A stretch of DNA of 64,000 nt. It comes from Artemia franciscana (Eukaryota > Arthropoda > Branchiopoda > Anostraca > Artemiidae). Position 1 is the stretch's first letter, and every line of letters begins with the position of its first letter. The notes under the pieces were generated by a model that had not been told where the DNA came from, made no database searches, and saw only the letters and a list, made by a program, of their open reading frames with translations. Location of the stretch: assembly GCF_032884065.1 (NCBI RefSeq), contig NC_088866.1:34180115-34244114 (forward strand), read 5' to 3'. Below, piece after piece: positions 34,709-58,279 of this stretch. A program made the translations under genes and the position numbers.

Positions 34709-34995
34709 TTATCTTAATCTACCTTTGGCTGATTGGACAACCCCAAACCAACCATCGACATCACCTTTGAATTCTGGATGATAAGAGACAATGTGATTCC
34801 TCACATAAATGTTTCTTGCAAATTTTCTATTGCAAGCTTTCACCGGACACTGAAATAGCATCTTCCCTCCACACTCGTATCTTGAATGCCTCCTATAAGC
34901 AGATTTGGAACTATACTTCTTACTGCAAGTTGAGCATTGGAAACAAACATGACCACTTGAATTTGTCATAATAATCGGAGGAATTTCGTCACCAC
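34709..34995 (-). CDS. lola: lola-like alternative 3' terminal exon 1: CCHC + C2H2 zinc-finger pair
   Basis: The acceptor TTCTTTTTTTAAG| precedes the exon, which starts GT and reads GDEIPPIIMTNSSGHVCFQC. Finger 1 is C20-x2-C23-x12-H36-x4-C41, ending in the RYEC signature. Finger 2 is C49-x4-C54-x12-H67-x4-H72. Then come HPEFKGDVDGWFGVV and a stop at 34709, giving 94 residues. The spacing and the HxRYEC motif are hallmarks of lola-family fingers, where many alternative last exons are joined to one shared BTB-encoding 5' part. The entry is phase 1, identical to the exons at 46733 and 58038. It would give the transcription factor its DNA-binding specificity in the nucleus. An ATG inside the exon (9th codon) is not the true start. 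The shared exons are outside the window. Confidence 0.85.
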
Positions 34996-35631
34996 CTTAA
35001 AAAAAGAAGCAACATTAGTCTCAAAGTCTACATTAGTACAGAAAATTGAATGTGCAAATAACATATTTGGCTCTATAAATTCAATAAACTTATACAATAG
35101 TATACAAAATCTAAAGAACAAATAAAAAAAATCTGAGAATCTGTCAATTCAATATCAAGCATATGGATTGTTGGATAGGACAAACAAAGTAACATAATAC
35201 TTTTGTCAAGCAAGTCTGTTTATTTCCTTCATCATATTTAGAAAACCCGCAAGTCATAAACAAGAATAAAAGCTAAGAGAGGGTCCATAAGCAGAATTAA
35301 CAAACTTTTTTTTATAACAGACAGCAGGCGAATTTTGCAGAAGCATCTATAAACGAATAGCGGTAGCAGCTATGTAAATTCAGTAACCTTGAAGAAAATA
35401 TATTGGAGATCTGAAATACGAGACTGAATAGTCTATCTATAAACATAGATCTAGAATAATCTATAAGTTCAATCTACAGTGTATAGTTTGTTGGCTAGGC
35501 TAAAAAAAGTAACGCTTTTGTTTAATAAGTCGGCCCGTAAAATAAGTCCCTGTATGAGATTCACCAATAGATATTAAGAAAAAATTTTGACGAAAAGGCT
35601 ATATTTATAATATTTACTACATTTTGTATTT

Positions 35632-35827
35632 CAGGGGGGGAGGTGGATCTGAACCAAACATGGCGGATGCTAAACCACCACCAACACCACCAGAACTGTT
35701 GCTTAGCATTAATGAGAAGATATATTTATATATTGTGTTATGTGTAACAAGATATATTTATATATATTGTGGTTATGTGTCTCTACATAAACCACCAAAA
35801 GGTTACCCCCGCTGTGACAATATATAA
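35632..35827 (+). other. Candidate exon with good Kozak start, unknown gene
   Basis: TTTTGTATTTCAG| is followed by G-rich sequence and AAACATGGCGG (A at -3, G at +4), then MADAKPPPTPPELLLSINEK. A 33-bp tandem duplication (ATATATTTATATATTGTG and following) comes next and the frame ends at 35827. No convincing donor and no recognised domain. It may be chance. Confidence 0.2.
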
Positions 35828-36847
35828 AAGTAAGAAAAGCCATAAGAACAGATGCAACTTGAAATCCGGCCCAAAAAACAGACAAACAGTGAATAAACAG
35901 CTTAAGGCTGTATTCAGTAAATAATATACGTTGATAAAAAGCATCGAGCCTTTAAACTGACAAAGACGAAAAATGAATTTTAAGAGCTACCCTGTTATTT
36001 TGAAGTAACAGTACACAAATACCAATATATCGGAGTCACAACTGAATGCAAACAATTCAGACTGGTCCGAGTCAAGTCATCTATGAAACAACGAAATTCA
36101 GAACGATCCGAATCAAGACACCTATGTATTTGAGGGCAAATAATATTTTTCAAAATAGCTACTGCAGCTGAAATCTTACTTGCATTGAATTTCCAGAGAA
36201 GCTTTTCTTAACAAAAACCAGCTCTTATGGTGATTTAATGGTTTGTTTTGTTTTACGGACGAAAGTTAACGCCACTAAGCCGTCCCAAACTCGGCGAGAA
36301 GGGGGGGGGGCAAATTGAAGTTTTTTTCTTGGAAGGAGTCAACAACACACTAGCTGTATTCTAGGCTATAATTTTATATTTGCATCCTATTTGCAGGTAT
36401 ATTGGCTCAAAAGTCAATTTCATAAAAAAAAAAAATTCTTCTATTTAATCTAATTATATAGTATTATTTCGTTGCAGAATTACAGATGATAATGATAATT
36501 AATTACAAATGGTAAAAAAGCTAAACAGAATTACCAGCCATGACTGATTTATCAGGAAAACATGTAAATAATGTATCCTTCTTACGCCTTAAAGTAAAGA
36601 AAGCCATTTCATCATTAAAATTTCTAGCAGTCTTCGTGCAGTAATGCACTCTAGAGCTAGTACGATATATACGCAACATGGTGGGAGTCTTGGCCAATAA
36701 TGTCCATCCAGAACAGCTTTTTTTCACAAATCTTGATATACGAGGGCACGAGAAAAGTCCAAAAGTCAGCATACTACTCGAAATCGACAATGTTTAAAAG
36801 TAGATGACACTATACAAAAGTAACAAGACGAAGTAATTCAACTCATA
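35828..36847. other. Intron/intergenic, one unassigned ORF
   Basis: A minus-strand frame at 36521-36790 reads LFSCPRISRFVKKSCSGWTL, then MLRIYRTSSRVHYCTK and ending DKSVMAGNSV. It has a balanced composition, but I do not recognise it; it adjoins a LINE fragment and could be transposon-derived. Confidence 0.25.
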
Positions 36848-36925
36848 GATTTAGGAGCGAGAGATCTCGCTCCTAAATCTCGTTCTCGAATAGATCTCGT
36901 TCTCCGAACGAGAGATCATATCAGC
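36848..36925. other. Paired short palindromes
   Basis: GATTTAGGAGCGAGA (36848-36862), two bases, then TCTCGCTCCTAAATC (36865-36879): a perfect 15-bp inverted repeat. Just after it GATCTCGTTC..GAACGAGAGATC forms a second, imperfect one. Confidence 0.7.
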
Positions 36926-37075
36926 CGAATAACAGCAAAAGCAGCTGGTTTCCTAAAATCCTTTGTAAATCTCATAAGGTTTGGAATGACAGAGCAACTC
37001 CTTCTTTCGTGCAATAAAACTTATGTCATGCCCGTAATAATGTGGCGCCCATGTTTCAATGCTTTTAGACTTACA
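36905..37075 (+). mobile_element. LINE reverse transcriptase C-terminal fragment
   Basis: One frame reads HISRITAKAAGFLKSFVNLI, then KTYVMPVIMWRPCFN, matching the region after the RT catalytic box in many LINEs (...HI..I..KA...GFL..., ...YV.PVI.Y...). It is too short to classify. Confidence 0.45.
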
Positions 37076-37460
37076 AGTAGTTGAAATAGAAGTAATAGTT
37101 GAATTAGTAGTAAATGGAGCAGTGATAGTAGCAGTAGCGTGACCATATTGCATTTGAGTCAGGTGATCTCTCCCTTTAACCATTCTCTGAAAGTTCCAAC
37201 TTAATACTCAAATAAATTCTTGGGAAATACTCTTTTGACAATGTAAATGCACATAGCACATATTCATTTAGTTCAAATTTCCCTTCAGTATTGTAAATGG
37301 AGTACTGTGGTAGTAGTAGTGGTAACAGTACTAGTAGTGGTAGTTGTAGCAGTAGTGGTAGCATGCAAATATTGCCTTTTTGGTCATCTCCCTTATCATT
37401 TCCTAAAAGTTCCAAATTAATATACTCAGTAATTCCAGAGGCACGACCTTTCGACAATCT
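37076..37460 (+). repeat. Two diverged copies of a (GTA)n-headed repeat
   Basis: AGTAGTAAATGGAGCAGTGATAGT and following (37105-37230) and GTAAATGGAGTACTGTGGTA and following (37290-37440) both pass from a GTA/GTG-rich run into TTGC, GGTGATCTC or GGTCATCTCCC, and AAAGTTCCAACTTAATACTC or AAAGTTCCAAATTAATATAC, ~190 bp apart. The Ser/Gly-rich frame over it is an artefact. Confidence 0.6.
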
Positions 37461-37619
37461 TTATATACATAACGTGTTTAGATTTAATTCAACACTCTTC
37501 TCAAAACTCTTTGAAAGGCTTTTATGCGCTTCGTCTTTTCGGAAAGTAGAGATCAAAATGAATACCTTTCAATAACTTACGCTATATGTAAACAATGTTA
37601 CGCTATATGTAAACAATGA

Positions 37620-39190
37620 ACAAATTGCTTAACTTACAGCCATTGCCCTGAGGACTGTGGGGAGGTTGACATCCCCAAAGATATAGTTACTGGACCTTTC
37701 AACAATGCTGAACAAAAAAGCTCTCTTAGAACATGATCGAACGTGTTTTGAGAAATAATAGACTATGAGGGGGATGACTGCCCTCCATTCACTTTGGACT
37801 CTTAAAAAGGCAACTAGAACTTCTGACTTTCAATCAAATAAGCCCCATCCGATCCGAAGTTTAAAAAACTATCTGTTCCATAAAAACCTTATATGCCCCA
37901 GGGCGTATCTCACAACCCTTGTCCCCGGGCTACGGGCGGGGGTCCACCCTGAAGATATTGTTATATGCTCTTTGAACTATTGTGAACAACATGGTTATCT
38001 CACAATTTGGATCAGATGCGTTTACGGAAAAGAGGATGTCAGGGGAGGGGGGCTAGTTGCCTCAAGGGGGGGGGGGGGTATTTTCAATCAAATAAGCCTC
38101 GTCCAAAGTTAATACGACTAATCCTTCCATTTAATACTTATATGCCCCCAGGGACTAACTTACAACCCTTAAGCATGACGAAAATAATTCCTTAAACCAC
38201 AATGGCCTGCCATAACATAAAGAAAGAAAACGATCAAAAATGGTAATCCCTGAAATAAATGTCGAACCACTTCCCCAATCACATAATCAAATACATTATC
38301 AACCCCTTAGGTCTCAACGGGTATCCGCAAGAAATGCAAAGGTTAAAATCAGAAATCAGGCGACCTAGTTCACCAATTTATTCAATTGCTGCTTCGTTTG
38401 TTTGAGTGAATGGAAAATTTTTTTTCTTTTATTTCTAAGTTGTTCGTTAGTATTCGTCGTTGGCAGTTCGATTTTGTTTGGATTTAATGCAAATCGCAGA
38501 TATTGGCGAATAACTCACTTTATTGTTTGTTAAGTATTTGATTTTAATTCTTTAAATTTGTGATCTTTTATTTAATTTTTTTGGCGGTTTTTTATATTAG
38601 TTTTGTTGTACTTTCCGTACTTATTTTTTGGTTTTTGTTTTTCCTTGATCTTATTATTTTGTTTGCGCTGAAGAAGAGAGGTGGGTCTTCTCTCGAAATA
38701 TTCGCTTTCTGTGTTTTCTTCAGTATTTTCATTTGGCCTTTAAAAATCCCATTTTTAATCGTTTTCTTTCTTTATGTTACAACCCTTGCCCTCAGACTTT
38801 GGGGGAGGGGCTGCGTCTACCCCAAAGGCCTTGTCATGTGATCTTTGGAATATTTTTGAAAAAAATTTCGATGTCAAAATTTATACGACTATCCTTTCTA
38901 TGAAAACCTTATCAACCCCCGGGGCATAACTTCCAGCCCTTACCGTGAGGGCTGCTGCGCGAGGGTTGTCATCCTCAAAGACGTAATTTTCGGACCTTTC
39001 ATCTACGCGAAAGAAAATGGCTATCTAAAAATCTTGATTGGATGTGTTTGAGGAAATGATGGGCGGGGGGGGCTCGTTGCCCTCTAATCACTTTCGATTT
39101 TTGAAAGGGCACTAGAGCTTTCAGTTTCTCATTGAATTAATCCCTTACAAAGTTTCTAAGACAACTCTTTCAACATGAAGTGCCCAGATC
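37620..39190 (+). repeat. Worn tandem pieces of the A-F element family
   Basis: Repeated order of CAACCCTTGCCCTCAGACTT-like, GGGGAGGTTGACATCCCCAA, AGATATAGTTACTGGACCTT, CTATCTCACAATTTGGATCA and GACTCTTAAAAAGGCAACTA words, seen at 37625-37840, 37900-38170 and 38775-39180. They correspond to the copy C-F segment around GGGGGAGTAAGTCATCCCCA. Old and non-coding. 38190-38775 between them is AT-rich with no gene. Confidence 0.6.
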
Positions 39191-39377
39191 TAAAAAAAAT
39201 TAAAAAACACTAAACATATAGAAAAAAATCAATAGCCATACATTGTGCACACATTGCTCTTTACTTAGGCGGCTCAATAGCACTGCCTTTGATTATTAAA
39301 GTTTTCCCCAAGAGGCACTTCATATGGAAGAGGTGGTCGCATAGAATTCAAGGGGGCTCGTACAAAACCGGAAGTTT

Positions 39378-40000
39378 GAAAAAATTCTAGTTAATTGACT
39401 TCTTGCTGTCTTGGAAAGGGTTTAAATTAGGAAAATGAAATTTTCAGGGATGGGTCTACAGGTTAAAATATGTCCCGGGAAGGTATTTTAAAGTACACTT
39501 CCACTCCTTCTCCCTCTAGAGGGCCCTGAAATTTGTCTACATGACAGGTACTGTACCTATTGAAATTTTGAAAAAACAACATTTTACGTTAATTTTCAGT
39601 TACTAGTTGTTTTTTCTCTGCCTTTAGTTTCCTAAAAATTCCTAAATTCCTGTTATTTGAGTAGAATTTTGAGCCATATCAATGTTTTCAAAATTTAGGA
39701 AATATATTTGCATATCTTTAAAACCTTATAAAATGGAACTGAGCAAAGTTATGAAGCTGAAAACAATTTTGTTGTACTTCAATTAAGCAGAAGATCTATT
39801 TTGCAAGGTTTCACTTTTATAACACACATATTTTTAAAGATCATCAAAGGTCAGGGCCCTCTAAAGGGAGAAAGAGTGGAGGTAGTTGCTTCAAAATACC
39901 TTTCCAGGTCATACTTTAGTTTGTAGATTCATCCCTAAAAGTTTCATTTTCCTAACCTAAACCATTTCTGAGACAGCAAGAAGTCAATTAACTAGATCAA
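39378..40000. mobile_element. Fold-back MITE, second member of the 23-kb family
   Basis: TTCTAGTTAATTGACTTCTT at the left is answered by AAGAAGTCAATTAACTAGAT at the right. Inside, GGTATTTTAAAGTACACTTC and AGAGGGCCCTGAAAT are answered by GGGCCCTCTAAAGGGAG and TTCAAAATACC. The arms are ~150-180 bp and the centre is ~270 bp. Non-coding. Confidence 0.75.
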
Positions 40001-40009
40001 TTAACTAAA

Positions 40010-40660
40010 ACTTTTTAAAGTCAAAGTGATTGGAGGGCAATTAGCCCCCCCCACAGGACCCTTTTCCCCAAATACATCTGATCATAGTTATGAGACAGGA
40101 ATTTTGTTCAAAACACCTCAAAGATCAGATAACAAAAACTCCAGGTCAAACACAGCCCCCTAGAACCTGGGAGCAAGTGCTGTAAGTTATGCCCCGGGGG
40201 CATATAAAGTTTTTTATGTAAGGACTGGTCATATAAACTTCAAAGGGGGCTCGTTCGATTGGAGACTGAAAGTTTTGGTCCCCTTTTTCAGAGCCAAAAG
40301 TGATAAAAAGGCAACAAGCACACCCCCCCCCTCACACCCTCTTTTCCCCAAATGCATCCAATTGATTTTGTTTATAGTCATTTTGTTCAAAGTAGACCAT
40401 TGATTGAAAGGCATCAACCCCCCCCCCCGCTCTCTTTTCCCCAAATGCATCCGATCAAAATTTGAGACTGTCATTTTATTCAAAATACTCTAAAGATCAT
40501 ATAACAAAACCCCACGGTCAATATACTTCCCAGAGCCCTGTGGGAAGGGCTGTAAGCTATGCCCCGAGGTATATAAGGTATTTATGGAAGAGGCGGTCGT
40601 ATAAACTTCGGAGTGGGCTAAATGATTAGAAATTGGAAGTTCTAGTTCCCTTTTTAAGAG
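40010..40660 (-). repeat. Worn tandem pieces of the A-F element family, reverse orientation
   Basis: Three units of GTGATTGGAGGGCAATTAGC, CCCTTTTCCCCAAATACATC, TTTTGTTCAAAACACCTCAA and GGAGCAAGTGCTGTAAGTTA-like words. Non-coding. Confidence 0.55.
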
Positions 40661-40901
40661 TCAAAATATATCATAAGACAATTGCCCCCCCTCCACACAA
40701 CCCCAGCAAAAACTAAATGAACAACCATAGTAAACAAACATAGATCCAGTATCGTATGAATGAACAAACAAATCATAAACAAGTAAAAGTTATATTGAAT
40801 ATGCAAATCAAGCCTAAAACAAAAAAAAACCTTTACTATTAAAGAATAAATAAAACACAAAACGAACAGAAATTATATAGACAATGACAACCAACTACCT
40901 A

Positions 40902-41338
40902 CAAACAAGAGTTGGCTACTGCCTTAGTAACGGTAAAAATACGATGCCTATTGCGTCATTGACGCTTTACTGAAAGCTATAAGTGTCTTGAACGGTCTTG
41001 GAAAGAACTAATGAAGATAGACTGAATATTTGATATATAATTATAGCTACAATTTTCATTGCTGAAATTTTCAATTTTATAAAAAGTACAAAAGAAAACA
41101 TTTGTATAATATGATTTGTTTTAGTAAAGCACCAAATACGCAGTAGGCTTTGTAATTTTACAAAAAGTATCAGTTCTAGATTTTAATTCGCAGTAATTTT
41201 CATTTTATTTTCAATGTTGTTATAAATGCAAAAGAAAATATTGGCAGCTTAATCCGTTTTCAGTAAAGCGTCAATGGCATAATAGGCTTTATACTTTTAC
41301 CGTTAGCGAAGGCGGCAGTAGCCAAACTCTTGTTTGTA
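40902..41338. mobile_element. Fold-back MITE abutting copy A
   Basis: ACAAACAAGAGTTGGCTACT, AACGGTAAAAATAC and CATTGACGCTTTACTGAAA (40902-40976) are answered by TCAGTAAAGCGTCAATGGCA, CTTTTACCGTTAGCG and AGTAGCCAAACTCTTGTTTG (41263-41338). The arms are ~76 bp and the interior is AT-rich. No ORF. Confidence 0.75.
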
Positions 41339-43099
41339 TTAAATAAAAAAAAAACTAATTTTTTTTAGCTGAAAGTAAGGAGCGACATTAAAACTTAAAA
41401 CGAACAGAAATTACTCCGTATATGAAATGAGTTGTCCCCTCCGCAATCCCTCGCTCTTTACGCTAAAGCTTTAAATTGTTTTAAAAAGTAGAATTGTGGC
41501 AAAGAGTCAAACTTTAGCGTAAAGAGCGAGGGATTGCGGAGGGGACAACTCATTTCATATACGGAGTAATTTCTGTTCGTTTTAAGTTTGAATGTCGCTC
41601 CTTACTTTCAGCTAAAAAAAATTAGTTTTTTTTTTATTTAATTTCTGAACGTTTTTGAATTAATGCATGAATGGTTTTGGCTCTCCGCACATAAATTATT
41701 AAAATGAAATTTGTATATTAATTATTTTTTTGGCTAAATGGCTTTCTATTAGTTTTGATCAGACGATTTTGAGAAATAAGGGGTGGAGAAGGAGGCCTAG
41801 TTGCCCTCCAATTTTTCGGTTACTTAAAAAGGCAACTAGAAATTTAATTTTTAACGAACGTTTTTATTAGTAAAAAATATACGTAACTTAAGAATTAACT
41901 TACGTAACAAACTTTCATAACCTTATATTTTTATTATGTAAACGAGGGGATTTGTACCCTCGTTAATACCTCGCTCTTTACACTAAATCGTAAGTTTTGT
42001 CCCAATTCTTTAAGAATGGCCCCTGAATCAGAAAGGCCGTAGAATAAATAGTTGAAATTACTAAAAAATACTTTAGCATAAAGAGCAAGGTATTTATCTC
42101 CTCCTAAATACCTCGCTCTTTATGCTAAAGTATTTTTAGAACCCCTCATATGCGTAATAATCTCTGTTTGTTTTAAGTTTCAATGCTACTTCTTCCTTTC
42201 ATTTGAAAAAACGGTTTCATGTTTATTTTTCATTGTTTTCTTATAGTAATGCTAGAGAATCCTGCGCCCTTGTCATTGAATTTTTCTTCCCCCATTACAG
42301 ATTCCTCCAAGGAAAGATCCTCCAACATAGCCCCCTCTCCTCAGCCCCACCCCCAAACAAAATAAAATCCCCCTGAAAACGTCTGTACACTTCCCAATAA
42401 CCATTACTATATGTAAACAATGGTCAAAGTTTGTAACTTGCAGCCCCTCCCCCAGGGATTGCGTTGGAGTAAATCATCCCCAAAGACATAGTTATTATGG
42501 TTTTCGACTATGCTGAACATAATGGCTATCTCAAAATATTTTATCCGTTGACTTTTGGAAAAAAATGAGTGTGGGAGGGGGCCTAGATGCCCTCCAATTT
42601 TTTTGGTCACTTAAAAAGGGCACTAGAGCTTTTCATTTCCGTTAGAATGAGCCATCTTGCGACATTCTAGGACCACTTGGTCGATACGATGACCCCTGGG
42701 GAAAAGAAAAAAAAACAAAAAAAAAAAACAAACAAATAAACACGCACCCGTGATTTGTCTTCTGGCAAAAAATACAAAATTCCACATTTTTGTAGATAGG
42801 AGCTTGAAACTTCTACGGTATGGTTCTCTGATACGCTGAATCAGATGGCGTCATTTTCGTTAAGATCCTACGACTTTTAGGGGGTGTTTGCCCCTATTTT
42901 CCTAAATAAGACAAATTTTCTCAGGCTCGTAACTTTTGATGGGTAAGCCTAAACTTGATGAAACTTATATATTTAAAATCAGCATTAAAATGCGATTCTT
43001 TTGATGTAGCTATTGATATCAAAATTCAATTTTTTAGAGTTTTGGTTACTATTGAGCCGGGTCGCTCCTTACTACAGTTCGTTACCACGAACTGTTTGA
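41339..43099 (+). mobile_element. Palindrome-headed element, copy A (full length)
   Basis: Head: ATTAAATAAAA then AGCTGAAAGTAAGGAGCGAC, TAAAACGAACAGAAATTACT and CTCGCTCTTTACGCTAAAG form a ~130-bp arm, a ~45-bp loop, then the mirrored arm to TTATTTAAT (~41642). Middle: a second set of inverted words at ~41960-42140 (ACCTCGCTCTTTACACTAAA, ACTTTAGCATAAAGAGCAAG). Tail: GCCGGGTCGCTCCTTACTAC then CAGTTCGTTACCACGAACTG (43075-43094), an 8-bp-stem hairpin, and TTTGA. The head, its mirror arm and the tail all carry GTAAGGAGCGAC or its complement. No conserved protein; a recurring ~70-codon frame is a by-product of the repeat. Confidence 0.88.
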
Positions 43100-43651
43100 C
43101 TGATTTTCGTTCGTTTTTAGCTTGAGTTGCAAGCTGAAATTTAAGTTTTACTTAGATTTATTATTTAAGATTTAATTATTCATTTATCTTGGAAGGTACC
43201 TGTTGTATGTTTGTTTGCTATGATTGTTTATTTAATTTTTATTTGTTTTGGGTTTTATTTATTCTTTAATAGTAAAATATTTTTGTTTGTTTTAAACTTG
43301 ATTTGCATGCTCAATTTAAGTTTTGCTCGTTTTAAGATTTATTTATTCATTTCTTTGGTATCGTTTGTATGTTTTTTCATTTAATTTCTGCTTGCTTCGG
43401 GTTTCATTTATTCTTTAATAACAATTTCTGTTCATTTTGAGCTTGAATTGTTATAGATTCTTATTTCTGCTGATCTTAAGTTTAAAATGTCATTTTCTTT
43501 TCTTTGAAAAACTTCTTTTTCGGAATTTTTTTTTTTCAATTAATTTCTTCAGTAAATTATTTCTTTTTCTTGTTGTAGCTTCTTTGGGATGTCGAAGAAG
43601 ACGCGGAAAATAAGGACTCTTGCCTAATCACCAGGGCCGTATCTAGAATGT
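43100..43651. other. Intronic spacer, T-rich, no gene seen
   Basis: Loosely repetitive TTTGTTT/TTTAATT text without features I can support. Confidence 0.4.
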
Positions 43652-43862
43652 CTTTTACAGAGGGTGTTTTACACAGAGATTTTTTCAGGGGCTGAGGGGG
43701 TTACACAAAAAACCGAAAAAACGCATAAAAATTTGTTTACATCCATTTTTGTTACGTTTTTATGAGTGAGACAAACATTTCGAGGGGGATAAATACGATT
43801 ATTAGTGTTAAAATTAATTTTTTTTACAGAGGGTGTTTTACACAGAGATTTTTTCAGGGGCT
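43652..43862 (+). repeat. 41-bp direct repeat pair
   Basis: TTTTACAGAGGGTGTTTTAC and following through TTTTTTCAGGGGCT is identical at 43652-43692 and 43822-43862. The second copy runs straight into the half palindrome of copy B. The text between resembles ~10500-10570. Confidence 0.8.
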
Positions 43863-45990: not shown

Positions 45991-46732
45991 TTACGCTTTT
46001 GAAATAACTAACAAAAACATCTTTTTAAGTTGTTCTCAAAGTGAAGATTAGCAGGAAAACATCATACTTTGAACCTCCTCACCCTACACAACCCAACTGA
46101 TCCTTCAATTGAGATAAGCTTACCAGTACGTTTTGCCAATTACCCCATAAGCAAAAAAAATGTCAGATAAGACCTTTATGTGTGGCAGTGATGATGTACT
46201 ACTAGTTTTAACTACTAGTCCTTTAGCTCTTCTGTTTAGCCCTTTAGCTGTGCTACTAACCCTTTCGCTACTATAACATATGTAGAAACTAAACAGGCAC
46301 GTCAAATATTGTCGGTGTATTCTTAAGTTGAATCTTATGCGAAAATATGTTGTATTTATTGACCTGTGATGTTATGACACAAAAGTAATTAGAAGCACAG
46401 AAAAATGATTAGAAGGAGAAAAAAAACACACTACATGGGCATAAAACACAACTAATTGTCTTAACTTAACTTTTTAAGAATTCACTTTTGTAATTCGACC
46501 AGTCAGTATGGTGATTCTAAAACCCAAACTAAAGTGGACGCATCAATTTTGAGCAATCGATAATGGGGTGGTATGCATACTTAGAAAAGCAGTTAGATCT
46601 TAAGAAATTACTTTAATTGATAAAATAACTTGAGACAAATTCAGACATATTGTAGAATATTCACAGACATACAATCTTTCCTCACATCAAAATCCATGAT
46701 TTCTAGCAGTTTTTCTGAATTGATTCTAAGTT
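45991..46732. other. Probable 3' flank/UTR of the 46.7-kb zinc-finger exon
   Basis: AT-rich. Minus-strand sequence downstream of the exon's stop has an ATTAAA word (~46615), a possible weak poly(A) signal; no AATAAA stands out. No other gene seen. Confidence 0.4.
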
Positions 46733-47043
46733 CTAATTTTTTTCTAAATTCTTTCTGCGTTGACCAGAAATGGTATCTCCATACCATTCATCTCCACTAG
46801 CAACAAAATCTGGATGATCGGTCAAAATATGGTTTTTCACATGAATGTTTCTCGCGAAGTTTTTCCAACACTTCTCAATTGGGCACTGAAAGGGTCTTTT
46901 ACCGCTGCATTCATATCTCACATGTCTTTTATGAGTTGATTTTACTTGGTACTCTCTACCACATGTAGCACATTTGTACAAAGTCCTTCCATCTTCAGTT
47001 GTAACAGTAATTGGAGCTGATTCATCTTGATAACCAAATTCAC
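46733..47043 (-). CDS. lola: lola-like alternative 3' terminal exon 2: CCHC + C2H2 zinc-finger pair
   Basis: The acceptor TTTTTTTTCTTATAG| is followed by GT and EFGYQDESAPITVTTEDGRT. Finger 1 is C24-x2-C27-x12-H40-x4-C45 (HVRYEC). Finger 2 is C53-x4-C58-x12-H71-x4-H76. The tail HPDFVASGDEWYGD resembles the HPEF...GWFG tail of the 34.7-kb exon and ends at 46733, giving 102 residues. FARNI occurs in finger 2 of both, so these two exons are the closest pair and probably arose by duplication. There is no internal ATG that would make a sensible start; the exon must be spliced to an upstream shared exon. It lies between element copies B and C. Confidence 0.87.
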
Positions 47044-47435
47044 CTATAAGAAAAAAAACCGCATTAAATCCAAATTCATAGATTAAATGGAAAAAGATCA
47101 GCCAAGATGAGGAAAAAACTTTGTATTTGTAAACAATAATCCATGCGTCATAGAAATTTCTTTTTGGTCTTTACCGCCTGAGACTGATCCTCTTTCATTG
47201 GTTTTACGTTCTATCAGCCCAATAGAGCTAATAAAAAATTGAGAAAGTAAAATAGTGACGCTACACTCCACTATTTTACCGGCTCAAATTTGTTATTTGA
47301 ATGGCTGAAAACATAGAGTAGGGCGTCCTCCTCCCACTATATGCTACACCCCTACCAACAACTAGAGTAAATGATACCAGTTCACCCCTTGCGATCAGGA
47401 AGGCGTCCACTAGGCGCAATCAAGAGGCTCCGGTT
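47044..47435. other. Intronic, no feature seen
   Basis: Short AT-rich stretch upstream of the zinc-finger acceptor. Confidence 0.4.
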
Positions 47436-48060
47436 GAAGTACCTTTAAGGGGCATTTTTTTCTAATTAAATTTAAATAACAAGGAGTCAAACGCTAAATC
47501 AATATTGATCAAATTTAAAATTGGAAGAGCTTCTAATTCCAAATATGCAAGCAATGGTTTAAGCAAAGAAGTTTTCAAAAAGACATAAATCCCCCTTCAC
47601 AAAAAAAAGTATTTGGTATCGTCCATTGGGCGTACATCAGAAGGTTTCCCATCTGAAGTACCTTTAAGGGGCATTTTTTTCTAATTAAATTTAAATAACA
47701 AGGAGTCAAACGCTAAATCAAGATTGATCAAATTTAAAATTGGAAGAGCTTCTAATTCCAAATATGCAAGCAATGGTTTAAGCAAAGAAGTTTTCAAAAA
47801 GACATCAATCCCCCTTCACAAAAAAAGTATTTGGAATCGTCCATTGGGCGTACATCAGAAGGTTTCCCATCTGAAGTACCTTTAAGGGTTTTTTTTTTTT
47901 TTTTTTTGATTTAGATGACAAAGCAAATTCAAAACTGACAGATTCCCTTTTTCCAATCAATGAGGCAATAGCTTAAGTGAAGAAAGTTTTCAAAAAATCA
48001 CCGAGCCTTGTTCACAAAAAAGTATTAAGTATCGTCCAAGGCGTTCCTCAGAACGCCTTG
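47436..48060 (+). repeat. ~218-bp tandem repeat, 2.8 copies
   Basis: GAAGTACCTTTAAGGGGCAT starts units at 47436, 47655 and 47873. The first two differ by a handful of bases (for example CAATATTGATC versus CAAGATTGATC). The third is strongly diverged but keeps GAAGTTTTCAAAAA-like and GTATCGTCCA words. Confidence 0.9.
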
Positions 48061-49205: not shown

Positions 49206-49212
49206 CAATTTT

Positions 49213-49290
49213 TTGACATTACTGCAGAACGATTCGAACTTCAATCTTCTTTTGCAGGGGAGGGAGTACTTTAGCCACTGCACTGCCATT
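49213..49290 (-). repeat. tRNA-derived SINE or tRNA pseudogene (candidate)
   Basis: Minus strand: GGCAGTGCAGTGGCTAAAGT (A-box-like), CCCCTGCAAAAGAAGATTGA, then AGTTCGAATCG (B-box GTTCGAATC). A to B spacing is near tRNA length, but the acceptor and anticodon stems do not pair well. Confidence 0.45.
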
Positions 49291-50640
49291 GCTCACCAGT
49301 CCCTGGGGTAAGATCTAGTTTTGGTGAAAAATTTCTCAAATGGTTATCAGAAGATTCACTACAATAATGTGGAATGCTATAACTTGCATTATCTGCGTCA
49401 ATTATTTCAAAGGTTGTTAAAAAAAAGAACAACCTGACTATTAAACGTGACAAGACCAATCCGAACAGCTAAAATAAAGGACATGGAAAATATGTCTGAG
49501 GTAATGATGAACGATAATGAATCGCAAAGAATATGCAGTTAGAAGACAAGCAACAGTCTGGACCCACGAACGTAACAGGACTAATCTAAAGAGCTAAAGC
49601 AAAGGGCATTGAAAAAATGTTTGAGGTAATGATGAACGAAAATGAAGAGCAAAGACATAACCCTTGTAAAGCCCGGAATCAACTACCAACAATCAGATTC
49701 CGGTTACGGAACCAACAATGTTGGTTCCAATTACGGTCACATTCATCTATATCCATATTAGAATTTCAAGAGCAAATTACGTAATTTTCCCCCAGGGGTG
49801 GAATCACTTTTGGTTTTGTGACGCATGCGCAAAAATCAAGTTGAATTGCAAAAATGTTGTAATATGAAATATTATGTTAGAAGACAAATCACAATTACAA
49901 TGGAATGAAGGAACGTGTCATTATAGCACCCAAAAGGCATGTCGAAATACATTTAAATAAAGAACTGAACACTGGTACATTTACATATAGAAATTCATTT
50001 ACCTAAAAGAACAAAACATTTGTATATTTATATTTAGAACTGAACACTGCTATTTCTAAATAAGGACCAAATAGAATAAAATTCTCAGTAGACACCTCCT
50101 AAAGGAGTTCTTTTTTCAGAACACATCAACTATTTTTTAGAAAAATTATTGACCGGGGCTCGCTCTTTGCTGGGCTAAAGCTAGTGATGAAGTCATGAAA
50201 ACCAACTTTGAAAACGTGGCCTGACAGATAAGAGTTGGATTCATAGAAACAGCTAAGTTGTGTGGCTTATTTTGTACGGCTGAGTACATAAGGAATGTCC
50301 GGGTCCGTAGCTTCAGTTCTTACTTTTTGCCCCTAAAACCACTTGTGTTGTTCTTGGAATTTTTCATATTGTAATCTAGTCTACTGATGGAGTTCAAGTA
50401 AAGTATTATTTTTACTTCTTTTAAGACTAGAGAATCTAAATATGATGTCAAAATTCAATATTTAATGCTATTTTAAGCATAACCTGCCTGGTATGGCACT
50501 TGGATCTTAACATTTATTAAATTAAAAACAAAAAGCTTTTTTAACTGAAGTAAAGGCCCTGAAAGTGTCAAGTCAATACCCTTAAGCCGTGCTTAATATA
50601 TTGCGCATACACTTTTGATAATCTGGAAGCAAATAGAGCA
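49291..50640. other. Intronic, one weak tandem repeat
   Basis: 49446-49520 and 49570-49645 share GCTAAAATAAAGGACATGGA / GCTAAAGCAAAGGGCATTGA and GAGGTAATGATGAACGA, period ~123. Otherwise no feature. Confidence 0.45.
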
Positions 50641-51084
50641 ATTTGATTTCATTCGGCACCCCCTTGACATTCCATGAAGTTTTCACTTTAATAGCCTATT
50701 CAGACAAACCCAGGAGAAAACAACCCCCCCCCTTCCCAATGATAAACCCTCTTGGTAAAAAATGGACACACGGCACAATTTGTAACCCATACCCGGAGGG
50801 CTGTGGTTGGCGTGGCGTCACCGGAGGCATAGTTATTAGAACTTTCGATTATTTTGAACAAAATTGCTGTTCAAATTTTGACCAGTGTTGGGCTTGGGAT
50901 GTCTAAAAAGAACAAGAGAGACTAGATGACCTCTAATCACTTTCCAGCATCCCCTTCAACAAGCCCTCAGAGTTTCAACTTAATAACCTCAGCTGTTTCT
51001 GAGAGATTTTTGATACGCCTTTTTGACGACCAGCGTGCAAATAATATGTTTTCATCAATATCCCATAAATATTATCTGATAGTA
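50640..51084 (+). repeat. Worn piece of the A-F element family
   Basis: ATTTGTAACCCATACCCGGA, GGGCTGTGGTTGG, GGCATAGTTATTAGAACTTT and GACCTCTAATCACTTTCCAG follow the family order with heavy divergence. Non-coding. Confidence 0.5.
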
Positions 51085-52735
51085 GTCCGCAATCCCTCGC
51101 TCTTTACGCTAAAGCTTTTAATTGTTTTAAAAAGTAGAATTTTGGCAGAGTCAAACTTCAGCGTAAAGAGCGAGGGATTGCGGAGGGGACAACCCATTTC
51201 ATATACGGAGTAATTTCTGTTCGTTTTAAGTTTTAATGTTGCTCCTTACTTTCAGCTAAAAAAATTAGTTTTTTTTATTTAATTTCTGAACGTTTTTGAA
51301 TTAATGCATGTTTGGTTTTGGCTCTCCGCACATAAATTATTAAAATGAAATCTGTATATTAATTCTTTTTTTGGCTAAATGGCTTTCTCTTAGTTTTGAT
51401 CAGACGATTTTGGGAAATAAGGGGTGGAGAAGGAGGCCTAGTTGCCCTCCAATTTTTCGGTTACTTAAAAAGGCAACTAGAACTTTTAATTTTTAATGAA
51501 CGTTTTTATTAGTAAAAAATGCACGTAACTTAAGAATTAACTTACGTAACAAACTTTCATAACCTTATATTTTTATTATGTATACGAGGGGGTTTGTACC
51601 CTCGTTAATACCTCGCTCTTTACACTAAATCGTAAGTTTTGTCCCAATTCTTTAAGAATGACCCCTGAATCAGAAAGGCCGTAGAATAAATAGTTGAAAT
51701 TACTAAAAATACTTTAGCATAAAGAGCAAGGTATTTATCTCCTAAATACCTCGCTCTTTATGCGAAAGTATTTTTAGAACCCCTCATAGGCGTAATTATC
51801 TCTGTTCGTTTTAAGTTTCAATGCTACTTCTTCCTTTCATTTGAAAAAACGTTTTCATGTTTATTTTTCATTGTTTTCTTATAGTAATGCTAGAGAATCC
51901 TGCGCCCTCTTCATTGAATTTTTCTTCCCCCGTGACAGATTCCTCCAAGGAAAGATCCTCCAACATAGCCCCCTCTCCTCAGCCCCACCCCCAAACAAAA
52001 TAAAATCCCCCTGAAAACATCTGTACACTTCCCAATAACCATTACTATACGTAAACACTGGTCAAAGTTTGTAACTTGCAGCCCCTCCCCCAGGGATTGT
52101 GGGGGAGTAAGTCATCCCCAAAGACATAGTTATTATGGTTTTTGACTATGCTGAACAAAACGGCTATCTCAAAATTTTGATCCGTTGACTTTGGAAAAAA
52201 ATGAGCGTGGGAGGGGGCCTAGATGCCCTCCAATTTTTTTGGTCACTTAAAAAGGGCACTAGAACTTTTCATTTCCGTTAGAATGAGCCCTCTTACGACA
52301 TTCTAGGACCACTTGGTCGATACGATGACCCCTGGGGAAAAGAAAAAAAAAACAAAAAACAAACAAACAAATAAACACGCACCCGTGATTTGTCTTCTGG
52401 CAAAAAATACAAAATTCCACATTTTTGTAGATAGGAGCTTGAAACTTCTACGGTATGGTTCTCTGATACGCTGAATCTGATGGCGTCATTTTCGTTAAGA
52501 TCCTACGACTTTTAGGGGGTGTTTCCCCCTATTTTCTTAAATAAGGCAAATTTTCTCAGGCTCGTAACTTTTGATGGGTAAGACTAAACTTGATGAAACT
52601 TATATATTTAAAATCAGCATTAAAATGCGATTCTTTTGATGTAGCTATTGATATAAAAATTCATTTTTTTAGAGTTTTGGTTACTATTGAGCCGGGTCGC
52701 TCCTTACTACAGTTCGTTACCACACGAACTGTTTG
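51085..52735 (+). mobile_element. Palindrome-headed element, copy C (left-truncated)
   Basis: Begins inside the left palindrome arm at GTCCGCAATCCCTCGCTCTT, has the complete right arm, the middle and the tail, and ends with CAGTTCGTTACCACACGAACTG (a 2-base insertion in the hairpin) then TTTGA. Very close to A and D by eye. Confidence 0.87.
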
Positions 52736-52896
52736 ATACTTATCAATCCTAGTAAACACGACAGATACTCATGTCAGAAATTTGAGACGCTTTCTCTTTT
52801 CTTGTTTGTTTGTACGTGAGCTACGGTAAGGTTTCAAACTGGCTTGAGGATTAAAAAAAATTAAAGATTGTTCAAAACATGCTAATTCTTACTAAG

Positions 52897-54258
52897 ATTA
52901 AATAAAAAAAACTAATTTTTTTAGCTGAAAGTAAGGAGCGACATTAAAACTTAAAACGAACAGAAATTACTCCGTATATGAAATGAGTTGTCCCCTCCAC
53001 AATCCCTCGCTCTTTACGCTAAAGCTTTTAATTGTTTTAAAAGGTAGAATTGTGGCAAAGAGTCAAACTTTAGCGTAAAGAGCGAGGGATTGTGGAGGGG
53101 ACAACTCATTTCATATACGGAGTAATTTCTGTTCGTTTTAAGTTTTAATGTCGCTCCTTACTTTCAGCTAAAAAAAATAGTTTTTTTTTATTTAATTTCT
53201 GAACGTTTTTGAATTAATGCATGTTTGGTTTTGGCTCTCCGCACATAAATTATTAAAATGAAATTTGTATATTAATTCTTTTTTTGGCTAAATGGCTTTC
53301 TCTTAGTTTTGATCAGACGATTTTGAGAAATAAGGGGTGGAGAAGGAGGCCTAGTTGCCCTCCAATTTTTCGGTTACTTAAAAAGGCAACTAGAACTTTT
53401 AATTTTTAATGAACATTTTTATTAGTAAAAAATATACGTAACTTAAGAATTAACTTACGTAACAAACTTTCATAACCTTTTATTTTTATTATGTATACGA
53501 GGGTGTTTGTACCCTCGTTAATACCTCGCTCTTTTCAATAAATCGTAAGTTTTGTCCCAATTCTTTAAGAATGACCCCTGAATCAGAAAGGCCGTAGAAT
53601 AAATAGTTGAAATTACTAAAAATACTTTAGCATAAAGAGCAAGGTATTTATCTCCTCCTAAATACCTCGCTCTTTATGCTAAAGTATTTTTAAAACCCCT
53701 CATATGCGTAATAATCTCTGTTCGTTTTAAGTTTCAATGCTACTTCTTCCTTTCATTTGAAAAAACGTTTTCATGTTTATTTTTCATTGTTTTCTTATAG
53801 TAATGCTAGAGAATCCTGCGCCCTTGTCATTGAATTTTTCTTCCCCCATGACAGATTCCTCGAAGGAAAGATCCTCCAACATAGCCCACCCCCCTCAGCC
53901 CCACCCCCAAACAAAATAAAATCCCCCTGAAAACGTCTGTACACTTCCCAATAACCATTACTATATGTAAACACTGGTCAAAGTTGTAACTTGCAGCCCC
54001 TCCCCCAGGGACTGTGGGGGAGTAAGTCATCCCCAAAGACATAGTTATTATGGTTTTCGACTATGCTGAACAAAATGGCTATCTCAAAATTTTGATCCGT
54101 TGACTTTGGGAAAAAAATGAGCGTGGGAGGGGGCCTAGATGCCCTCCAATTTTTTTGGTCACTTAAAAAGGGCACTAGAACTTTTCATTTCCGTTAGAAT
54201 GAGCTCTCTTGCGATATTCTAGGATCACTTGGTCGATACGATGACCCCTGGGGAAAAG

Positions 54259-54332
<74 letters not shown>

Positions 54333-54692
54333 AACACGCACCCGTGATTTGTCTTCTGGCAAAAAATACAAAATTCCACATTTTTGTAGGTAGGAGCTTG
54401 AAACTTCTACAGTAGGGTTCTCTGATACGCTGAATCTGATGGTGTCATTTTCGTTAAGATCCTACCACTTTTAGGGGGTGTTTCCCCCTATTTTCCTAAA
54501 TAAGGCAAATTTTCTCAGGCTCGTAACTTTTGATAGGTAAGACTAAACTTGATGAAACTTATATATTTAAAATCAGCATTAAAGTGCGATTCTTTTAATG
54601 TAGCTATTGATATCAAAGTTCAATTTTTTAGAGTTTGGTTACTATTGAGCCGGGTCGCTCCTTACTACAGTTCGTTACCACGAACTGTTTGA
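52897..54692 (+). mobile_element. Palindrome-headed element, copy D (full length)
   Basis: Complete head palindrome 52897-53195, middle inverted words at ~53515-53700, hairpin tail 54668-54687. Contains a 72-base poly-A at 54259-54330 where A and C have a mixed A/CAAA tract. Lies ~160 bp after copy C in the same orientation. Confidence 0.88.
54259..54330. repeat. Poly-A tract, 72 bases
   Basis: Uninterrupted; specific to copy D. Confidence 0.97.
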
Positions 54693-55036
54693 TTAGAGAA
54701 AAGAGGGCAATGACACGAGTTGCATTTCAACCCCGAACTTCAGTTTTTAAAAACGCCTATTCACCATAATCCATGTTTGACACCTCAAGACAAGTAGAAA
54801 AAATTAAAATGGATTTAATATTGTTTGGTTTATCCTGGACAATAGAAATTATTATGGCACAGAATTATCTGTTTCTATAATACACATTTATTGCTAATCT
54901 TAAAAAAAAAATAGTTACTGAATTTACTTGACCGTTTATTCCACTTTCTTTCATAATTAAATTTTTCAACGTTAAGGACTTGTTTTTGTTGAACATACAT
55001 CTAAAAATAAAGACGAAAAAAAGATTTCGAACGAAA
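54693..55036. other. Spacer between the facing tails of copies D and E
   Basis: 344 bp of AT-rich sequence with no feature seen. It would be the loop if D and E paired. Confidence 0.5.
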
Positions 55037-56744
55037 TCAAACAGTTCGTGGTAACGAACTGTAGTAAGGAGCGACCCGGCTCAATAGTAACCATAACTCT
55101 AAAAAATGGAATTTTGATACAATAGCTACATCAAAAGAATCGCATTTTAATGCTGGTTTTAAATATATAAGTTTCATCAAGTTTAGTCTTACCCATCAAA
55201 AGTTACGAGCCTGAGAAAATTTGGGGGAAACGCCCCCTAAAAGTCATAAAATCTTAACGAAAATCACACCATCAGATTCAGCGTATCAGAGAACCCTACT
55301 GTAGAAGTTTTGAGTTCCTCTCTACAAAAATGTGGAATTTTGCATTTTTTGCCAGAAGGCAGATCACGGATGCGTGTTTATTTGTTTTTTTTGTTTTTTT
55401 TTGTTTTTTTTTCTTTTTCCCAGGGGTGATCGTATCGACCCAGTTGTCCTAGAATGTTGCAAGAGGGCTCATTCTAACGGAAATGAAAAGTTCTAGTGCC
55501 CTTTTTAAGTGACCAAAAAAATTGGAGGGCACCTAGGCCCCCTCCCACGCTAATTATTTTCCCAAAGTCAACGGATCAAAATTCTGAGATAGCCATTTTA
55601 TTCAGCGTAGTCGAAAAACCTTATAACTATGTCTTTGGGGACGACTTACTCCCCCACAGTCCCCGTGGGTGGGGCAACAAGTTACAAACTTTGACCTGTG
55701 CTTACATATAGTAATGGTTATTGGGAAGTATACAGGCGTTTTCAGGAGGATTTTTTTGGTTTGGGGGAGGGGTTGAGAAGAGGGGGATATGCTGGGGGAA
55801 CTTTCCTTAGAGAATTTGTAATGGGAGAAGAAAATTTCCATGAAGGGAGAGCAGGATATAGGCTACTAGCATTATTTAAAAAAAAACAATTAAAAAATAA
55901 AAGTGAAAAAGCTTTTTCAGCTGGAAGTAAGGAACAGCAATAAAACTTAAAACAAACAGAAATTATTACCCATATGAGGGACTCACCTCCTTCTAATACC
56001 TCGCTCTTTACGCTAAAGTATTTTCAGTAATTTCAACTACTTATTCTACGGCTTTTGTGATTCAGGGGGTCATTCTTAATGAATTGGGATAAAATTTAAG
56101 CTTTAGTGTAAAGAGCGAGGTACTGACGATGGGGCGAATCCCCTCATATATGTAATAAAAACATGAGAATACAAAAGTTCTTTACGTAAGCTAATTTATA
56201 AGTTACGTAAATCTTTTACCAATAAAAAGATTCGTAAAAAATTAAAAGTTCTAGTTGCCTTTTTAATTAACCAAAAAATCGGGGGGCAACTAGGTTTCGT
56301 CCCCCGCTCTTTTTATCTCAAAATCATTCGATCAAAATTATGAGAAAGCCATTAAGCCAAAAAAAAAAAATATGCAAATTTCGTTTTGATTATTCCTCTG
56401 CGGAGAGCCAAAATCAAAACATGCATTGATTCAAAAACGTTCAGAAATTAAATAAAAAAACAAGTTTTTTTAACTGAAAGTAAGGAGCGACATTAAAACT
56501 TAAAACGCACAGAAATTACTTCGTATATGAAAGAGGCTGCTTCCTCATCAACGCCCCGCTCTTTACGCTAAAGTTTTTTACTGTTTTAAAAAGAAGAATT
56601 GAGAGAAAGAGTCAAACTTTAGCGTAAAGAGCGGGGCGTTGATGAGGAAGCAGCCTCTTTCATATACAAAGTAATTTCTGTGCGTTTTAAGTTTTAATGT
56701 CGCTCCTTACTTTCAGTTAAAAAAAATTGTTTTTTTTATTTAAT
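55037..56744 (-). mobile_element. Palindrome-headed element, copy E (inverted)
   Basis: Starts TCAAA, then hairpin CAGTTCGTGGTAACGAACTG (55042-55061) and GTAAGGAGCGACCCGGCTCA, and ends with the head palindrome 56449-56744, whose arms include CAACGCCCCGCTCTTTACGC and its mirror. More diverged from A, C and D than those are from each other. Confidence 0.88.
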
Positions 56745-57769
56745 CAGTCAACAAAAACGAGTAAAAAACATAACAATCAATAACGCAAGTCTACCCACAT
56801 TAAAAAAAAAACATAAGGCAAATCTATTTTTATTTCATAAACAGATAATGTATATTACAACTATAAAAAGTAATATAGAAAGAGCAAGTCAAAAGAAAAT
56901 CTCACATTCTATTAATTTCTGTTATTTTAACGCACATAAAGACAATTCACAGATAGAAACAAGATTAAATAAAAAACAAATATTATTCATTAAGTTAATA
57001 GAAGAGACGAAAAAGTATTTTAAGAGGAGGGAGTCTGACTCCCTGACGACGCCCCAATACGAAGTTAGCTTTTAAAGTTAGAATTATAACAAGTAACTAT
57101 AATTCCGGCAATTTTAAAGGCGGAACTTTTAAGGCATAACACAGGACAAAGACATTTTCAAATTTTCCCTTGTTTAGAAAAAACAGAAAAATTTCTCGAA
57201 TGACATTTAAAAAAAAAACAAAAAACAAAGAAGTTTTTTTTATACAAAGAAATGTATAACACAGGACAAAGACATTTACAATTTTTCCTTTATTTAGAAA
57301 ATGCAGAAAAATTTCTGGGATGAGATTTTTCTACTCAGTCGACAGAACTAATATCTGCTTTGTTTTTATTTACAATCGACTTAATTCCAGAAACGTCAAT
57401 ATTTAGCAGATTATATACCAGCTATTGGATGGTAACAGCCTGGTTTTGGATTTAAATACATAAATTTTGACTTAAAGTCAACTGAAATTCCAGAAGTGCC
57501 CGTGTATGCAAAAACAAAGTACAAGCACTGGATAATTTGAAAGTTTACAGCTTCACATAAATAAATATTCCTATTATACATTAAATTTACCCAAGGTTGA
57601 TCTCATCAATAAACCATCTATCGATGACTCCATAATCTGCTAAATTTTAATGTTTATATAAAAAAAAGCTTGGTATTCTTGAGGAAGGTACTCCGCCAAT
57701 AAGACAGTGCTGTTGAAATGGGAACCAACCAATAACAGGTACATTAGGGTGTGTATTTCATAAAGCTCA
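56745..57769. other. Intronic; one ~115-bp direct duplication
   Basis: 57133-57208 and 57250-57325 share ATAACACAGGACAAAGACAT, TTTAGAAAA and CAGAAAAATTTCT. No gene seen. Confidence 0.5.
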
Positions 57770-58095
57770 GAGATTTAGGAAGATGAAATGCCACCCAGCC
57801 CTTCCCTTACCTAACATCCCTGTTTAAAAACCAGGATGCCATAAACTGACATGGCCCTTCCTTGCTATTTACCTCAGGGAGCCTTGAGGAAGAGAACATG
57901 CCCCTAACTTCCCCCAATTGACATCCCGTCTTAAAAACCTAGATGACACAAATTGATATGAATCCTAACAGTAATTTACCTCAAGAAAATCTTAGAAATA
58001 TGACATGCCCGTGATCTTCTTTGAGTGACATCCCTGCTTAGAAACCAGGATGGCACAAATTGATATGACCCCTCAAAGTCATTTTCCTCGAAAAT
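57770..58095 (-). repeat. 107-bp tandem repeat that begins within the zinc-finger exon
   Basis: On the minus strand the anchor CATATCAATTTGTGCCATCC (end of the third zinc-finger exon) recurs as CATATCAATTTGTGTCATCT and CATGTCAGTTTATGGCATCC. The three are spaced exactly 107 bp apart (positions 58049, 57942, 57835), each followed by GGTTT.TAA and a GGGATGTCA-like word. The first unit covers the last ~20 codons; the others lie in what would be the 3' UTR. Confidence 0.8.
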
Positions 58096-58279
58096 CTTTT
58101 CGGACATCCTTCCACTGGACATAGAAACGGTAGCTTGCCACCACATTCATAGGATACATGTCTACGATGCGACCTTTTAGATCGGTATGTCCTTCCACAT
58201 TTCCAACATTTAAAAATCTTTTGACCTCCTTCTGATAAAAGAATAATTGGATCATTTCCATACTGGACATAGATTTCAC
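58038..58279 (-). CDS. lola: lola-like alternative 3' terminal exon 3: CCHC + C2H2 zinc-finger pair
   Basis: The acceptor TTTTTTTTCTTTTGTAG| is followed by GT and EIYVQYGNDPIILLSEGGQK. Finger 1 is C24-x2-C27-x12-H40-x4-C45 (HVSYEC), and finger 2 is C53-x4-C58-x12-H71-x4-H76. The frame closes two residues after HP, giving 79 residues; the acidic/aromatic tail seen in the other two exons is missing. A longer ATG-started frame on the same strand (58079-58279) is in the wrong phase and hides this one. Phase and finger spacing match the 34.7- and 46.7-kb exons exactly. The stop lies inside a 107-bp tandem repeat, which may explain the shortened C-terminus. Confidence 0.85.

Follow-up and report, generated by a model that had tools for sequence, protein, structure and literature searches.

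Predicted alternative terminal exons of a lola-type BTB zinc-finger locus, with a mirrored duplicate and a conserved intronic element, in Artemia franciscana

Some well-known animal genes combine one protein front end with dozens of DNA-reading ends. The joining takes place in part between different RNA molecules, by a mechanism that has been called unclear (PMC11426971). How such a hub finds its distant ends is the question raised by a 64,000-nucleotide (nt) stretch of the Artemia franciscana genome, here called the window (C4:34180115-34244114, C4 being contig NC_088866.1), which contains three widely separated minus-strand exons, each encoding a pair of zinc fingers. The region from 34180115 to 34494000 on this contig (313,886 bases) was read, and whole-genome searches covered the 1.27-Gb assembly of 6468 contigs. 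The three exons are very probably alternative last exons of a leftward-transcribed, lola-type BTB zinc-finger gene that has been duplicated as an inverted pair. This reading draws on open frames, strand, order, phases, BTB and other domain content, mirror order, selection and duplication, all as they appear in the sequence.

The three window exons (Table 1) share one anatomy. As an earlier note on this DNA had described, all lie on the minus strand, are entered through phase-1 AG/GT acceptors (the slash marks the predicted splice point), encode first a CCHC and then a C2H2 finger, and end in stop codons of their own; the finger spacing is the same in all three (C-x2-C-x12-H-x4-C, 7 residues, C-x4-C-x12-H-x4-H). 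The predicted acceptors of exons 1, 2, and 3 read cttctttttttaag/GT, ttttcttatag/GT, and ttcttttgtag/GT, so placed that two bases precede the first whole codon, and in exon 3 the stop follows the last finger histidine three codons on. A six-frame scan found the joint CCHC-C2H2 pattern three times in the window, always on the minus strand, and in 0 of 200 simulated 64-kb sequences (first-order Markov); a looser single-finger pattern occurred seven times against a simulated mean of 0.78. A profile of the three exons gave no further window match better than an expectation value (E) of 0.3, and relatives sought in viral and genome contig collections were not confirmed. In protein sequence, exons 2 and 3 are 43 to 46% identical to exon 1, and the pairwise ratios of nonsynonymous to synonymous divergence (dN/dS) are 0.24 to 0.27, with dS of 1.9 to 2.1, close to saturation. 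Because of this ratio of about 0.25 and the near-saturated dS, the exons look like old paralogues under purifying selection.

Two further descriptions in the earlier note stood only in part. Mobile elements were said to separate the exons; 47% of positions 35000 to 58000 is indeed repeated elsewhere in the 314-kb region (0% for the exons themselves), but the pieces that Pfam names as reverse transcriptase or hAT sit to the left of exon 1. One exon was said to be hidden behind a longer wrong-phase open reading frame (ORF), which is so if ORFs must begin with ATG: at the exon ending at 58279 the wrong frame then gives 63 amino acids and the right frame 14, and the right frame of the exon ending at 47043 is without any ATG. 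Drawn from stop to stop, however, the right frames are longer than the wrong ones on the same strand (96 versus 66 amino acids at 58279 and 145 versus 48 at 47043). The last codons and stop of the exon at 58279 fall within a 107-nt repeat, about two further copies of which lie in the 3' flank (57827-58098 for the whole).

The front part of the proposed gene lies beyond the window. No BTB domain was found inside the window to the right of exon 3 (Pfam, 58281-64000, minus strand, three frames) or in any frame of the window using a BTB query. The earlier note had predicted a BTB exon ending in phase 1 to the right, and one was found on the same contig and strand when about 250 kb was read rightwards. 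A tblastn search with a fly lola BTB sequence gave four strong places, two per strand, in 264 kb, the remaining matches having E above 1. The constant exons predicted for the minus copy code for 288 residues, which make up a BTB domain and a linker; exons 1 and 2 of a second copy on the plus strand resemble this anatomy, and Pfam recognizes BTB in the joined exons 1 and 2 of both copies (E 2e-24 and 7.5e-24). Alignment of the two last common introns exposed a third constant exon of 63 nt, the hub, which runs from phase 1 to phase 1 and whose acceptor, frame, and GTGAGT donor are kept. Exons 2 and 3 have predicted phase-1 donors in both copies, and the final G of the hub completes a glycine codon with an acceptor GT. 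The distances from the hub to the window acceptors are 127, 138, and 150 kb. In both copies a 120-nt block, 82.5% identical, lies about 12.4 kb upstream of exon 1 (C4:34385212-34385093 on the minus strand and 34392389-34392506 on the plus strand) and is perhaps a first exon or promoter.

What the earlier note took for a cluster of three is instead the most distal part, the tail, of a run of about 50 minus-strand finger exons, and the further exons of this sort that it expected lie on this very contig. Finger exons were collected by an iterated finger-pair profile search with a cutoff of E 1e-4, which gave 63 in total: 50 on the minus strand (34214826 to 34357582, counting a partial match at 34293852 with E 1.3e-5) and 13 on the plus strand (34438854 to 34489043, three weaker rows with E of 0.1 to 0.9 being left out). 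Neither array contains an exon of the opposite strand, all 50 minus exons lying by the minus hub and all 13 plus exons by the plus hub. The minus array extends over about 143 kb with exon spacings of 0.3 to 12 kb; the wide spacing of about 12 kb pointed out earlier applies to the three window exons, at 12.0 and 11.3 kb, whereas the array of 50 as a whole has a median of 2.4 kb.

The joint pattern of CCHC, C2H2, and stop is present in 55 of the 63 exons, while eight deviate or are incomplete; the plus exon at 34447386 is without finger 2. Among the 55, the second finger has the C-x4-C form in one plus exon and in eight minus exons, four of them distal and four proximal. Besides those of the window, the distal four include an exon whose open frame (34244859-34245254) starts 0.7 kb beyond the window and which groups with them in a clade with support of 98/99. 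Among the matches listed in a genome search with exon 1, only these four distal exons, exon 1 included, were better than E 1e-10; the subfamily thus showed no plus counterpart in that search. No plus-strand finger match on C4 between 34489043 and 48.8 Mb occurred among the 150 of 1483 and 150 of 2644 candidates scored in two whole-genome finger searches, and those at 33.2, 48.8, and 49.4 Mb lie within longer open frames. At the usual DNA-contact positions, distinct residue sets number 57 in 63 exons for finger 1 and 48 in 59 for the last finger, a wide variation that would fit different DNA sites.

Exon ends are predictions from a home-made splice-site score that was applied blind to phase. 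Of the AGs that precede the first cysteine, the one with the highest score is in phase 1 in 59 of the 63 exons, in phase 2 in three, and in phase 0 in one; 39 of the 59 phase-1 acceptors read AG/GT, and 20 have other starts. An AG of any quality can be found in phase 1 in all 63 exons, but also in phase 2 in 48 and in phase 0 in 46; that a phase-1 AG exists is therefore weak evidence, whereas its rank is strong evidence.

In the proposed gene, transcription would start upstream of constant exon 1 and run leftwards, and the phase-1 donor of the hub would be joined in each messenger RNA to one of about 50 terminal exons, whose open frames lie between 34357582 and 34214826. Each terminal exon would itself supply the two DNA-binding fingers, the stop codon, and the 3' end. 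Since the hub donor could be joined to any of them, the locus would provide one multimerizing front part with about 50 DNA-reading ends, the BTB domain serving for multimerization and the swapped finger pairs binding different DNA sites. The distal exons would be reached either by very long transcripts in cis, past 47 to 49 upstream terminal exons, or by trans-splicing, in which case distal transcripts would start separately and be joined to the hub as reported for fly lola. The earlier suggestion that these are lola-like alternative terminal exons thus gains support from the phase-1 BTB exon and hub on the same strand and from the 50 minus finger exons.

Were the exons independent zinc-finger genes or decayed relics, unconnected to the BTB gene, the very wide distal spacing would be expected, as would the finding that Pfam reports, above its cutoffs, only generic C2H2-type fingers on the window exons. 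Such an origin is very unlikely in view of acceptors that have pyrimidine tracts and match, in phase 1, the frame of a same-strand BTB hub, the open frames with their dN/dS of about a quarter, and the position of the exons outside local repeats. Several observations nevertheless weigh against a lola-type gene with alternative ends. The hub is separated from the window acceptors not only by 127 to 150 kb but also by 47 intervening terminal exons. Another phase ranks best in 4 of the 63 exons under a splice-site score that is itself home-made. Enrichment of polyadenylation signals is modest, AATAAA or ATTAAA being found within 400 nt in 52 of 63 exons versus 60% of random stretches and AATAAA alone in 40 of 63 versus 42%. 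The lola label itself rests on fly sequences that we take to be correct, and against the fly lola sequence the C4 copies are equalled or outscored by other BTB genes in the genome.

Compared with five fly BTB sequences, the minus-copy BTB reaches 57.5% with lola versus 51, 49, 48, and 39% with ttk, fru, br, and mod(mdg4). The highest genome score against the fly lola BTB belongs to a single-exon BTB on C6 (27.8 Mb, 145.8 bits), and further scores are 133.4 at C2:48.5 Mb, 85.2+58.3 at C9:38.6 Mb, 78+56 on C1093, and 75.3+58.2 on C16, with 73.9+58.8 and 73.1+57.7 for the C4 copies. Because several other BTB genes match the query equally or better, the C4 locus is only a possible one-to-one orthologue of fly lola. 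The BTB search of the genome gave at least 98 matches. Several of them are BTB genes split at the same break point, namely those on C9, C1093, C11, and C16 and some that are more divergent. Some, on C1093 and C9, are followed by finger exons of this kind, and the two hubs on C1093 face each other with finger exons between them; among the matches listed, C4 has more such fingers than any other contig. This BTB group is expanded in the genome, with clusters of single-exon BTB domains at C2:60.18-60.97 Mb and C15:38.15-38.28 Mb. Relatives of BTB exon 2 sought in a viral contig collection were not confirmed, and searches of PDB returned generic C2H2 fingers and other BTBs, with no chain named lola among the best 60 of 159, 60 of 92, and 55 of 55.

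The plus-strand copy, with its BTB exons, hub exon, and 13 finger exons, is arranged head to head with the minus copy and in mirror order (rho of -1.0 for eight clear pairs and -0.97 when each of the 13 plus exons is set against its best minus match). In the tree, nine plus exons pair with a minus exon as sisters with good support, and one is unresolved; the remaining three form a group next to a single minus exon, which suggests later tandem copying. dN is below dS in all 13 exon pairs (dN 0.06 to 0.28, dS 0.22 to 1.67). Between the constant exons, dN and dS are 0.016 and 1.03 for exon 1 (54/57 codons), at 85% identity, and 0.078 and 0.378 for exon 2, at 88% identity, exon 1 having been shortened by 9 nt in both copies for these comparisons. 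Since dS between the copies is 0.2 to 1.7, they represent an old duplication and not haplotypes; as judged from sequence, the pair is an old head-to-head inverted duplication with loss or unequal extent. Misjoined haplotigs can also yield inverted copies, yet it is highly improbable that the plus copy is an assembly or haplotype artefact with no true duplicate, considering the synonymous divergence of the matched exons and of constant exon 2 (0.38), the 13 versus 50 finger exons, and the three grouped plus exons with their sign of later copying.

Such a duplicate allows the birth and loss of terminal exons to be followed, the 13 plus exons matching 11 of the 50 minus exons. It is also a built-in comparison, in which whatever the hub intron requires should stay in both copies while the rest drifts. 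Outside regional repeats, a few collinear blocks align between the last common introns, and this comparison exposed both the 63-nt hub exon and an element of 213 nt. The element has the same length in both copies, starts 2.8 kb (minus) and 2.7 kb (plus) behind the hub exon, and includes stretches of 69 and 54 nt that are identical between the copies, with a further identical run of 36 nt that extends 3 nt past the element; such runs reach at most 38 nt in coding exon 2 and 19 nt in exon 1. A 261-nt query spanning the element is 92% identical between the copies versus 85% and 88% for exons 1 and 2, so that the intronic element is kept better than the coding exons.

A transposon is disfavored as the source of the element, which was found at 2 places in a genome search. 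A coding reading is disfavored by the 54- and 69-nt runs, identical at every base, because of which the constraint is taken to be on nucleotides. The open frame over the element spans 74 codons in the plus copy and 41 after a stop in the minus copy, and in the plus copy the element may yet be coding or act as a terminal exon. The same two outer hairpins are predicted in both copies. Fold z-scores of the 213 nt are -4.0 (minus copy) and -2.2 (plus copy) in the sense direction and -3.4 and -4.2 in antisense, and since both directions score low, no RNA strand can be assigned to the element. Over 401 nt the z-score is -3.7 for the minus copy (-2.3 in antisense) and -0.4 for the plus copy, which at this length folds no better than shuffles. 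Rfam gave three matches in 1101 nt around the element at E up to 5, all under the gathering scores. We infer that the element has a regulatory function, as RNA or as DNA and possibly in splicing; recent gene conversion of the 213-nt stretch alone is also possible.

The mirrored duplicate and the kept element together make the question of how hubs find distant ends testable. In flies, a strong U1-binding sequence has been reported in the last common intron of lola and mod(mdg4) (PMC10645366), the 3'-most alternative lola exon has clear trans-splicing support (PMC4528330), and intron 4 of mod(mdg4) contains sequences that promote trans-splicing (PMC12692577). Within the lola-type reading, the distal exons may be separate short transcripts from internal promoters that are trans-spliced to the hub, a version that we consider plausible but place somewhat short of an even chance. 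The window exons hold the same 3'-end position as the trans-spliced fly lola exon, far from the hub, and a structured, strongly kept element lies in the last common intron of both copies, which recalls intron 4 of mod(mdg4). However, the strong U1 sequence of the fly type was not found: the last common introns have no match within 1 mismatch of an 11-mer U1 complement, and their top-scoring U1 duplex sites differ between the copies, with no strong site common to both. Trans-splicing, moreover, is not required by the layout, since each of the 63 finger exons shares the strand of its own hub.

A bolder proposal, which we regard as improbable, would make the two copies one compound locus, in which the two-hairpin element steers a hub to a distant exon and each hub may be joined in trans to the exons of the other copy, as both hubs end in the same phase. 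The exons found only in the minus copy, including those of the window, would then also serve the plus hub.

A gene of this kind is already known, and it is the mirrored duplicate and the kept intronic element that stand out here. In Drosophila, lola has 20 isoforms, 17 of them with fingers, in which a BTB front part is joined to alternative finger-bearing terminal exons (PMC11426971, PMC1947980). The Artemia locus has the same predicted architecture and differs in its roughly 50 exons over 143 kb, its head-to-head duplicate, and the lack of a shared strong U1 site in the introns searched. A single hub exon branching to a long array of 3' exons is also described for Nasonia lola, with over 180 alternates in 350 kb, and Apis lola, with 58 in 200 kb (PMC5000498), and an array of 50 is therefore of a known kind. 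These hymenopteran genes have six common 5' exons, and the parts of that source at hand describe no duplicated locus of the sort seen here; according to the same source, non-hymenopteran insects are without a similarly large lola expansion.

Like the Artemia locus, mod(mdg4) has a BTB hub and many 3' variable exons, but these are mostly of the FLYWCH type and lie on both strands in several species, including D. melanogaster though not mosquitoes (PMC4667647), whereas here the exons encode C2H2-type pairs and each array keeps to the strand of its own hub. No FLYWCH domain was found on the three window exons (Pfam, E up to 1); the other 60 exons came from the finger-pair profile, a search not aimed at FLYWCH exons in the rest of the locus. 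In barnacle genomes, Lola and Br-C are expanded and a whole-genome duplication is described (PMC11331182); the expanded Lola genes are a likeness, while, as far as the available parts of that paper go, an exon array or head-to-head pair is described only here. Among the open-licence papers listed, in part represented by titles and abstract openings, no head-to-head or duplicated lola locus was recognized, and no described counterpart of the 213-nt intronic element was found in the portions available.

Table 1. Predicted features of the locus and related hubs (window positions unless a contig is named; a slash marks a predicted splice point)
Feature	Location	Strand	Details
Alternative terminal exon 1, most distal of array	34709..34995	-	Phase-1 acceptor, CCHC + C2H2, in-exon stop; Pfam zf-C2H2 E 9.8e-07
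Alternative terminal exon 2	46733..47043	-	Anatomy as exon 1; Pfam zf-C2H2 E 2e-05
Alternative terminal exon 3	58038..58279	-	Anatomy as exon 1; Pfam zf-C2H2 E 4.4e-06
3' splice acceptor + pyrimidine tract, exon 1	34996..35015	-	Predicted from sequence
3' splice acceptor + pyrimidine tract, exon 2	47044..47063	-	Predicted from sequence
3' splice acceptor + pyrimidine tract, exon 3	58280..58299	-	Predicted from sequence
AATAAA, candidate poly(A) signal	34538..34543	-	First AATAAA/ATTAAA, 166 nt past exon 1 stop
ATTAAA, candidate poly(A) signal	46612..46617	-	First AATAAA/ATTAAA, 116 nt past exon 2 stop
ATTAAA, weak candidate poly(A) signal	57646..57651	-	First AATAAA/ATTAAA, 387 nt past exon 3 stop
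Constant exon 1, minus copy	C4 34372683-34372510	-	ACAATG after acceptor; GTAAGT donor, phase 0
Constant exon 2, minus copy	C4 34368425-34367795	-	End ...CTA GTC TCA G/GTATGG, phase 1
Hub exon 3, minus copy	C4 34365489-34365427	-	63 nt; end ...CAA CAA G/GTGAGT, phase 1
Constant exon 1, plus copy	C4 34404714-34404887	+	
Constant exon 2, plus copy	C4 34407508-34408144	+	
Hub exon, plus copy	C4 34414232-34414294	+	63 nt
Intronic element, 213 nt, minus copy	C4:34362591-34362379	-	Beyond window right end; from alignment of last common introns
Intronic element, 213 nt, plus copy	C4:34416959-34417171	+	Beyond window right end; from alignment of last common introns
Further split-BTB hub	C1093:227404-231023	+	Same break point
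Further split-BTB hub	C1093:376212-370678	-	Same break point
Further split-BTB hubs	C9:38602673, 38710973	+	Same break point
Further split-BTB hub	C11:87965	+	Same break point
Further split-BTB hub	C16:2627354	-	Same break point

Other features of the window lie mostly to the left of the finger exons. Rfam and tRNA scans of the window gave no matches. An exon at 12807-13124 on the minus strand encodes a MIB_HERC2 domain (Pfam, 1.1e-23) and probably belongs to a neighboring gene for a mind-bomb-like ubiquitin ligase. Remains of mobile elements at 8105-9091 (minus), 26001-26870 (plus), and 27649-28140 (minus) comprise two reverse-transcriptase fragments and a hAT dimerization domain (Pfam), the hAT piece having a 179-nt tandem pair of 99% identity beside it (28555-28913); a second tandem pair, of 219 nt and 98% identity, is at 47435-47888. 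A microsatellite of about 500 nt, CT and then TA (22213-22713), yields long false IYIYIY frames, and minisatellite-like arrays with units of about 250 to 295 nt occupy 1129-1823 and 4504-5425.

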